From NCBI RefSeq assembly GCF_003258595.1, contig NZ_QHHQ01000007.1, positions 1-64,000 of the forward strand: 64,000 nucleotides of DNA, written 5' to 3'. A program made the translations under genes and the position numbers. The first letter of the stretch is position 1. Every line of letters begins with the position of its first letter. Positions 25,143 to 26,335 of this stretch are shown here, in pieces. The notes under the pieces were generated by a model. It saw only the letters and a list, made by a program, of their open reading frames with translations, ran no database searches and was not told where the DNA came from. This DNA comes from Acuticoccus sediminis (lineage in GTDB: Bacteria; Pseudomonadota; Alphaproteobacteria; Rhizobiales; Amorphaceae).

Positions 25143-25874
25143 CTACGGACGGAAATCCTCGAAAATGATCTGGTCCACGTACGGTGCGAGCCGCTTCGCC
25201 TCCATCGGCGAACGCACGGTCCATGCCAGGACGGGGCGTCCGCGACGCCGCGCGATGGACGGGCCGGGATGCGGCAGCGCCGTCGCGTAGTAGGAGACGA
25301 AGTCCGGCCTGGTGCGCGGGGTGTGAAGCAGCATGTCCCGCCCGAAGCGCGACACGAGGGAGCCGTGCTCCTCGCCGCCCGCGAGGATGCCGAGGGGCGT
25401 GTCCGGCAGCGCCTTGCGCAGGAGCGCGAGGAGGTCCGGGTCGAAGGTCATCACCGCCGCGGCCCCGCCGTATTCGGACAGGGCGCGGGTGATGGCGCTC
25501 GTCATCGCCGCCTTGGCGGCGGGGTGCACCGGGGCCTTCGCCTCCAGGAACAGGGGCGAGCGGCCCGACGTCAGGGCGAGCAGGTCGGTGATGGACGAGA
25601 ACGTCTCGTCCGACCCGGTGATGGTGATCGCCCGCAGCTCGTCCAGCGTGCGGTCGGCGACGCGGCCGGTGGCGTTGGTCATCCGGTCGAGCGTCGAATC
25701 GTGCGTGATCACGAGGCCGCCGTCGGCGGTGAGCTGCAGATCGACCTCGATCGCGTAGCCCGCCTCGATGGCCGCCTCGACCGCTCCCAGCGTGTTTTCG
25801 ACATGGGACGCGCCATGCAGACCGCGGTGCGCGATCGGCCGGCGCGTCAGCCAGTCGGGAACGATGCCGGTTAT
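25143..25874 (-). CDS. Glycerophosphodiester phosphodiesterase, apparent ATA start
   Basis: Hydrolyses glycerophosphodiesters to glycerol 3-phosphate and an alcohol. Catalytic motifs of the UgpQ/GlpQ family are intact: H16-R17-G, E26-N27, E43-V-D45 and H58-D. The first two lie upstream of the first in-frame ATG (25712), so a start there would remove the active site. No ATG, GTG or TTG exists between the motifs and the preceding gene. The best start is ATA at 25872-25874, overlapping the ridA stop as ATAA, with GAGG seven bases upstream. That gives a 243-residue protein of normal length. It lacks a signal peptide, so it is probably cytoplasmic. Confidence 0.82.
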   Translation of the reverse strand: MTGIVPDWLTRRPIAHRGLHGASHVENTLGAVEAAIEAGYAIEVDLQLTADGGLVITHDSTLDRMTNATGRVADRTLDELRAITITGSDETFSSITDLLALTSGRSPLFLEAKAPVHPAAKAAMTSAITRALSEYGGAAAVMTFDPDLLALLRKALPDTPLGILAGGEEHGSLVSRFGRDMLLHTPRTRPDFVSYYATALPHPGPSIARRRGRPVLAWTVRSPMEAKRLAPYVDQIIFEDFRP

Positions 25875-26335
25875 GATGCGACCTCGATGACCGCCTCGAC
25901 TTCGACGGCGACGCCGAAGGGGAGGTTCGCGACGCCGACTGCCGCGCGGGCGTGCTTGCCCTTGTCGCCGAAGAGCTCGACCATCAGGTCCGAGGCGCCG
26001 TTGATCACTTTCGGATGATCGCCGAACGCCGGGGCGGAGTTCACGAAGCCGTTCAGCTTCACGACGCGGACCACCTTGTCGAGCGAGCCGACGGCGGCCT
26101 TCACCTGCGCGAGGATCGCGAGCGCGCAGCGCTGCGCGGCGGCCTGGCCCTCTTCTACGCCGATGGTCTCGCCGCAGCGGCCCTTCATCATCGCGCCGTC
26201 GGCGTCGACGGAGATCTGGCCGGAGACGTAGAGAAGGTTGCCGGTCAGCACCGTCGGAACGTACGAACCGGCCGGTGCGCCCGCCTCGGGCAACACCAGG
26301 TCCATCTTTGCCAGTTTCTCTTCGACCTGCGACAT
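25871..26335 (-). CDS. RidA family protein
   Basis: Member of the RidA/YjgF/UK114 superfamily. RidA itself hydrolyses reactive enamine/imine intermediates released by PLP enzymes; other subgroups lack that activity. The 154-residue protein has YVSGQISVDADGAM, SLDKVVRVVKLNGFVNS and the C-terminal GVANLPFGVAVEVEAVIEV. The last places Val where the archetype has the catalytic Arg context (RVEI/ARVEV), so I am cautious about imine hydrolase activity. The start is ATG 26335, with GAGGGA upstream. The stop TAA overlaps the proposed start of the glycerophosphodiesterase gene. Confidence 0.9.
   Translation of the reverse strand: MSQVEEKLAKMDLVLPEAGAPAGSYVPTVLTGNLLYVSGQISVDADGAMMKGRCGETIGVEEGQAAAQRCALAILAQVKAAVGSLDKVVRVVKLNGFVNSAPAFGDHPKVINGASDLMVELFGDKGKHARAAVGVANLPFGVAVEVEAVIEVAS

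Follow-up and report, generated by a model that had tools for sequence, protein, structure and literature searches.

The gene for a glycerophosphodiester phosphodiesterase (GDPD) in Acuticoccus sediminis raises the question of how translation begins in a frame whose HRG and EN motifs precede its first in-frame canonical start codon. The gene lies on the minus strand (25143..25874) of the window, the 64,000-nucleotide stretch of DNA that was analysed, and its upstream partner is a ridA-like gene of the RidA/YjgF family (25871..26335, minus strand; 154 residues) whose product scores above the cut-offs of PF14588 and PF01042. Read from an ATA codon at 25872..25874, the GDPD frame encodes 243 residues and ends at a TAG stop. 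The product is similar to solved GDPD structures and belongs to PF03009, with a score of 92 bits against a gathering cut-off of 23.6 (E 8.6e-26, profile positions 1-232 of 244) when the N-terminal part is included.

Numbered from ATA, HRG occupies residues 16-18 and EN residues 26-27. Upstream of ATA the frame continues for 483 bases to an in-frame stop, and ATG, GTG and TTG are all absent from that interval. The first canonical codons downstream are a GTG at codon 55 (25712) and an ATG at codon 65. A start at the codon-55 GTG would remove both HRG and EN, and the form beginning at 25712 aligns with Pfam GDPD from profile position 40 to 232 only, with 41.6 bits compared with 92. The original prediction had taken ATA as the apparent start on the grounds that these motifs precede the first in-frame canonical codon, and this reading was borne out; judged from the sequence, ATA is the best start candidate of the Acuticoccus GDPD gene.

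On the minus strand the end of ridA reads ATC GAG GTC GCA TCA TAA and the GDPD frame reads ATC ATA ACC GGC ATC GTT CCC GAC TGG. The ATA (25874-25872) and the ridA stop TAA (25873-25871) have two bases in common, forming ATAA in the -4 arrangement, and a Shine-Dalgarno-like GAGG (25885-25882), positioned over a ridA Glu codon, ends seven bases 5' of ATA. Both the overlap and the GAGG had been predicted, and both were read directly in the minus-strand sequence.

Conservation of the junction in Acuticoccus

A search for GDPD across 101 genomes gave a match in 91, and 30 of the matching loci were retrieved and inspected. The family set comprised 10 genomes and the genus set eight, all with the gene; the latter include A. 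yangtzensis, A. mangrovi and A. kalidii together with two MAGs (named 'Alphaproteobacteria' and 'uncultured Rhodobacteraceae'). In all eight, which are relatives and not independent draws, ATA ACN GGN stands at the same place in GDPD genes whose products are 65-83% identical to that of the window, and the junction is ATAACNGG, with ATA overlapping the ridA TAA. The -4 stop/start overlap of termination-reinitiation pairs is thereby present as ATAA in 8/8 genomes, and AUA occupies the start position in all eight genomes of the genus, as it does across species in the ccpN type of conserved AUA start. The original prediction had envisaged a single G-to-A change from ATGA, had named a sequence error at the base as a possible refutation and had suggested looking for ATGA in close relatives. 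That comparison gave ATAA in 8/8 and no common canonical start elsewhere, which supports neither a change private to the window's genome nor a base-calling error.

ATA is conserved beyond what chance would give in these two genes. In codon alignments of the eight genomes, A occurs at the third position of 5.2% of ridA codons and 4.5% of GDPD codons, and only two ungapped columns have it in every genome, the last codon among the 154 of ridA and codon 1 among the 242 of GDPD. These two columns hold exactly the two A's that form the junction ATA. Elsewhere in ridA and GDPD just one of 145 Ile codons is ATA. Fourfold sites are 42-69% identical between genome pairs in ridA and 47-68% in GDPD, so common descent by itself accounts poorly for the retention of ATA.

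The ridA stop is TAA in 8/8 genomes, compared with TAA at the end of only 25 (G000) or 15 (G004) of 134 sampled frames, a sample that includes some antisense frames and in which TGA is the commonest stop (84 and 92 of 134). A single change to ATGA would create both the commonest sampled stop and the commonest -4-overlap start, and it is seen in none of the eight genomes. This absence suggests selection either for a weak start or for TAA, the two being inseparable here. The third letter of ATA is the middle letter of the ridA stop, and part of its conservation may reflect selection on that stop.

Translation appears to begin before the residues that follow ATA, given that T2, G3, P6, D7, W8 and L9 of GDPD are invariant in Acuticoccus, mostly with synonymous changes. 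This pattern bears on a start at codon 9, which would retain HRG and which is CTG in six genomes and TTG in two (G004 and G003), TTG being canonical. With some start-like codon there in 8/8 genomes such a start has a rationale, but we regard it as very unlikely: the residues before it (T2, G3, P6, D7 and W8) are invariant, T2, G3 and P6 with synonymous changes; PDW-L also occurs in relatives that start upstream of it (L012, L019, L027); and no Shine-Dalgarno-like run was seen just 5' of codon 9 in the window. In three congeners the open stretch of the GDPD frame contains a GTG or TTG well upstream of ATA. No canonical start is common to all eight genomes, and no alternative near-cognate codon near the GDPD start is identical in all of them.

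The open frame upstream of ATA, which extends for 81 to 570 bases in the eight genomes, would also accommodate a RidA-GDPD fusion produced by -1 frameshifting late in ridA. We consider this highly improbable, as the last 81 bases of ridA contain no X_XXY_YYZ heptamer in any of the eight genomes, the GDPD-frame codon preceding ATA is variable, and ATA itself would be unnecessary. The junction also shows no stable or unusual RNA folding (z of -1.5 to 1.4 against 100 plain shuffles). The missing canonical start might otherwise mark a decaying, incompletely translated gene, but the intact frame and the invariance of HRG and EN in 8/8 genomes make this scarcely credible.

GDPD starts outside the genus

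Outside Acuticoccus, 96 of 97 GDPD loci, from two partly overlapping sets, have a canonical start. In the first set one precedes HRG in 22/22 loci, two of which belong to the sister genus. The second consisted of the best 80 of 88 named loci and was scanned with two patterns, one of which (ITG..PDWL) biases it towards proteins like the window GDPD; eight loci that the pattern missed or misplaced were judged by eye. Five of the 80 are Acuticoccus, all with ATA, and correspond to G002, G003, G005, G006 and G001 of the eight-genome set, so they add no independence. A canonical start lies between the upstream stop and HRG in 74 of the other 75, the exception being Sphingobium scionense. In that locus (L082, near 2990) a CTG just 5' of the ridA stop may serve as the start, and a TTG lies nearby in many other Sphingobium GDPD loci.

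The distance between ridA and GDPD was surveyed with a rough script at 97 loci, 86 of which were scored: four have a -4 overlap, 23 other overlaps, 58 no overlap and one no canonical start. In two sister-genus genomes GDPD starts with GTG and ATG and does not overlap ridA in the ATAA manner; an ATGA ancestor of the Acuticoccus junction is possible.

Apparent non-canonical starts elsewhere in Acuticoccus

Further cases were sought by three screens of reciprocal best pairs. The first set 381 kb of contig 7 of G000 against equal lengths (381 kb each) from G004 and G002 and gave 69 and 32 pairs, respectively, with mainly third-position changes in 48 and 25. Against G002, the longest such stretch before a first canonical start was that of GDPD (52 codons, with a borderline third-position share of 0.50), and against G004 the gene did not pass on third-position changes, since its aligned frame extends through ridA as well. 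The screen also flagged rpoN, which was dismissed because it has a GTG. The second screen used a chunk around infC (134 pairs kept), and the third, under less strict criteria, retained 58, 26 and 129 pairs and flagged 13 candidates, six of which were read; it pointed to rnpA. Screens 2 and 3 both missed infC; the screens are therefore insensitive and say nothing about whether the ATA start is unique.

The infC gene, identified like rnpA by family search, starts with ATT, a start of the classic IF3 type, in 8/8 Acuticoccus genomes (L117-L124), after a GGAG or similar run, and no canonical start common to all eight was found before its conserved region. Its recovery indicates that reading junctions by homology detects a known kind of case. 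AUU initiation also occurs in IS911.

Across 762 kb of G000, a codon-usage score was used to count overlaps of the -4 type. Among 102 sites the start is ATGA in 42, GTGA in 21 and TTGA in eight. A canonical codon follows within 1-7 codons in 23 (CTGA 17, GTAG 4, GTAA 2), and the first canonical codon is at least eight codons on in the remaining eight (CTGA 4, GTAA 1, GTAG 1, ATAG 1 and, at GDPD, ATAA 1). At the ATAG site an ATG 15 codons on looks like the true start, as does an ATG 10 codons on at one CTGA site. Several genes near such sites were named from the look of their proteins, and we take them to be rlmH, rsfS (upstream of rlmH), rpmH, meaB and pbpC. Among the four long-gap CTGA sites rlmH holds up. 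The meaB-like gene (G000:C5, chunk position E+149363) has no canonical start at its CTGA overlap and was set aside for a GTG five codons upstream. The pbpC-like gene (G000:C7, chunk position A-329044), with a CTGA overlap and no canonical start there, is a possible further case.

An apparent CTG start overlapping TGA is present in rlmH in 8/8 Acuticoccus genomes (L275-L282; own copy at G000:C5:472463-472930, minus strand). In five of these an in-frame GTG 13 codons upstream could be used instead of CTG; the remaining three have an in-frame stop roughly ten codons 5' of CTG, and the interval contains no canonical codon. Canonical codons downstream are a TTG at codon 4 in G007 and a GTG at codon 8 in G001. 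Order relatives have ATG, GTG or TTG at the same codon in 22/22 loci read, drawn from 52 non-genus genomes with a match, and in seven of the 22 the start is followed by A to give the letters NTGA, a possible overlap with the upstream gene's stop. In rnpA a CTG overlaps TGA in G000 (L226; G000:C5:318963-319274, minus strand), G002 and G004 (L225 and L227 between them). No canonical start lies between this CTG and RLKRR in G000 and G002. An in-frame GTG is found 54 codons further upstream in G000, and G004 has a TTG just before CTG. The gene starts with ATG in G003, GTG in G007 and TTG in G001, and G005 and G006 fall outside the pattern.

Proposed initiation at AUA and comparison with known systems

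We propose that GDPD is probably translated from AUA, at low yield, by ribosomes coming directly from ridA termination. The ATA codon, its conservation, the lack of a common alternative start and the coding constraint from codon 2 on are seen in the sequences; from them we infer initiation at AUA, coupling to ridA, a low yield, checking by IF3 and selection for the low yield. After terminating on the ridA UAA, the ribosome or its 30S subunit would be held close by GAGG, and because AUA overlaps the stop, a short backward step would suffice to bring it into the P site. There the initiator fMet-tRNA (anticodon CAU) would read AUA with a mismatch at the third base only, and proximity would replace a good start codon. 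Since the yield at AUA would be low, the amount of GDPD would be small relative to RidA. The low expression foreseen in the original prediction is plausible if the gene is translated from ATA. In Staphylococcus, AUA starts give about 10% of AUG, and up to 30% (PMC13009471, available portion). An altered initiator tRNA was considered and rejected: the 42 tRNAs of the window's genome include three with CAU and none with a UAU anticodon, in a set that lists no Ile-GAU and may be incomplete.

Initiation at AUA could also proceed de novo via GAGG, independently of ridA termination, the overlap being an accident of compact gene order. A Shine-Dalgarno-like run does lie 7-8 bases 5' of ATA in 8/8 genomes (GAGG in six, GGAG in two), and AUA starts in Staphylococcus depend on such pairing (PMC13009471, available portion). 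We nevertheless think this unlikely, given the exact ATAA overlap in 8/8 genomes, against the varied ridA distances at other GDPD loci, and pairing of just 4-5 bases in four of the eight. With an assumed anti-Shine-Dalgarno tail, the predicted duplexes range from -6.4 to -11.6 kcal/mol, with 4-5 pairs in G000, G004, G005 and G007, seven in a row in G001, and more but gapped pairs in G002, G003 and G006. The GAGG may instead be present for a protein-coding reason, over the ridA Glu codon.

Re-initiation after ridA accords with some published observations and less well with others, as far as the available text of each source goes. NTGA, at -4, is the commonest gene spacing, and the choice between 30S and 70S and the role of IF3 in re-initiation are treated as open (PMC12548453). 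Re-initiation from non-AUG codons has been demonstrated with mutant initiator tRNAs in E. coli, where raised IF3 reduces re-initiation when no Shine-Dalgarno sequence is present (PMC2268962); the latter counts against the proposal, as re-initiation would still be subject to checking. At the third base of the codon IF3 permits weaker pairing, and it requires Watson-Crick pairs at positions one and two (PMC10158994), a rule that fits AUA and fits CUG badly and so counts against one simple account of both.

More broadly, we tentatively suggest, at somewhat less than even odds, that stop-overlapping starts in Acuticoccus escape the restriction to ATG, GTG and TTG. Re-initiating ribosomes would accept AUA (GDPD) and CUG (rlmH, and rnpA in a subclade), and the genus would retain weak codons to hold protein ratios in operons at set values. 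The GDPD junction is a natural, conserved test case of whether coupled re-initiation loosens start-codon choice. Gene finders restricted to three start codons would cut or miss such proteins, and overlap surveys with the same restriction would overlook the genes; the GDPD, which would lose HRG and EN if called from its first canonical codon, is a warning in this respect.

By title, the papers matched for AUA or ATA start codons concerned mitochondria or mitochondrial genes, and among the matches listed no title was on point for CUG starts with overlapping genes in bacteria or for start codons in Acuticoccus. The available text of PMC5622118 contains neither AUA nor ATA. The closest precedents are infC, ccpN and citZ of S. 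aureus, which start with AUA, that of ccpN being conserved to Bacillus subtilis (PMC13009471, available portion). They share with GDPD the AUA at the start position and, as predicted for Acuticoccus, reduced expression. The S. aureus starts, in a member of the Firmicutes, have an extended Shine-Dalgarno sequence and were established by profiling and reporters, whereas the Acuticoccus case is read from sequence, comes from an alphaproteobacterium, overlaps an upstream stop and has a short Shine-Dalgarno sequence in several genomes. Streptomyces sigR likewise keeps a non-canonical start across a genus (GTC in 32/34 species), but it uses another codon, has an extensive ribosome-binding site and is repressed by IF3 as determined by experiment (PMC5472188, available portion). 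The infC gene, which starts with AUU in E. coli (same source), has a non-canonical start genus-wide in the same Acuticoccus genomes (ATT, 8/8), but unlike GDPD it is subject to IF3 autoregulation and lacks a -4 overlap. In -4 pairs that undergo termination-reinitiation the start and stop also share two bases, but published descriptions give ATGA or NTGA (PMC6728339, PMC10666635, PMC12548453), and 'ATAA' does not occur in the available text of the first two. Conserved AUA starts have been published before, in Staphylococcus and Bacillus; what is new here, as read from the genomes, is a probable AUA start inside a stop codon, in an alphaproteobacterium.
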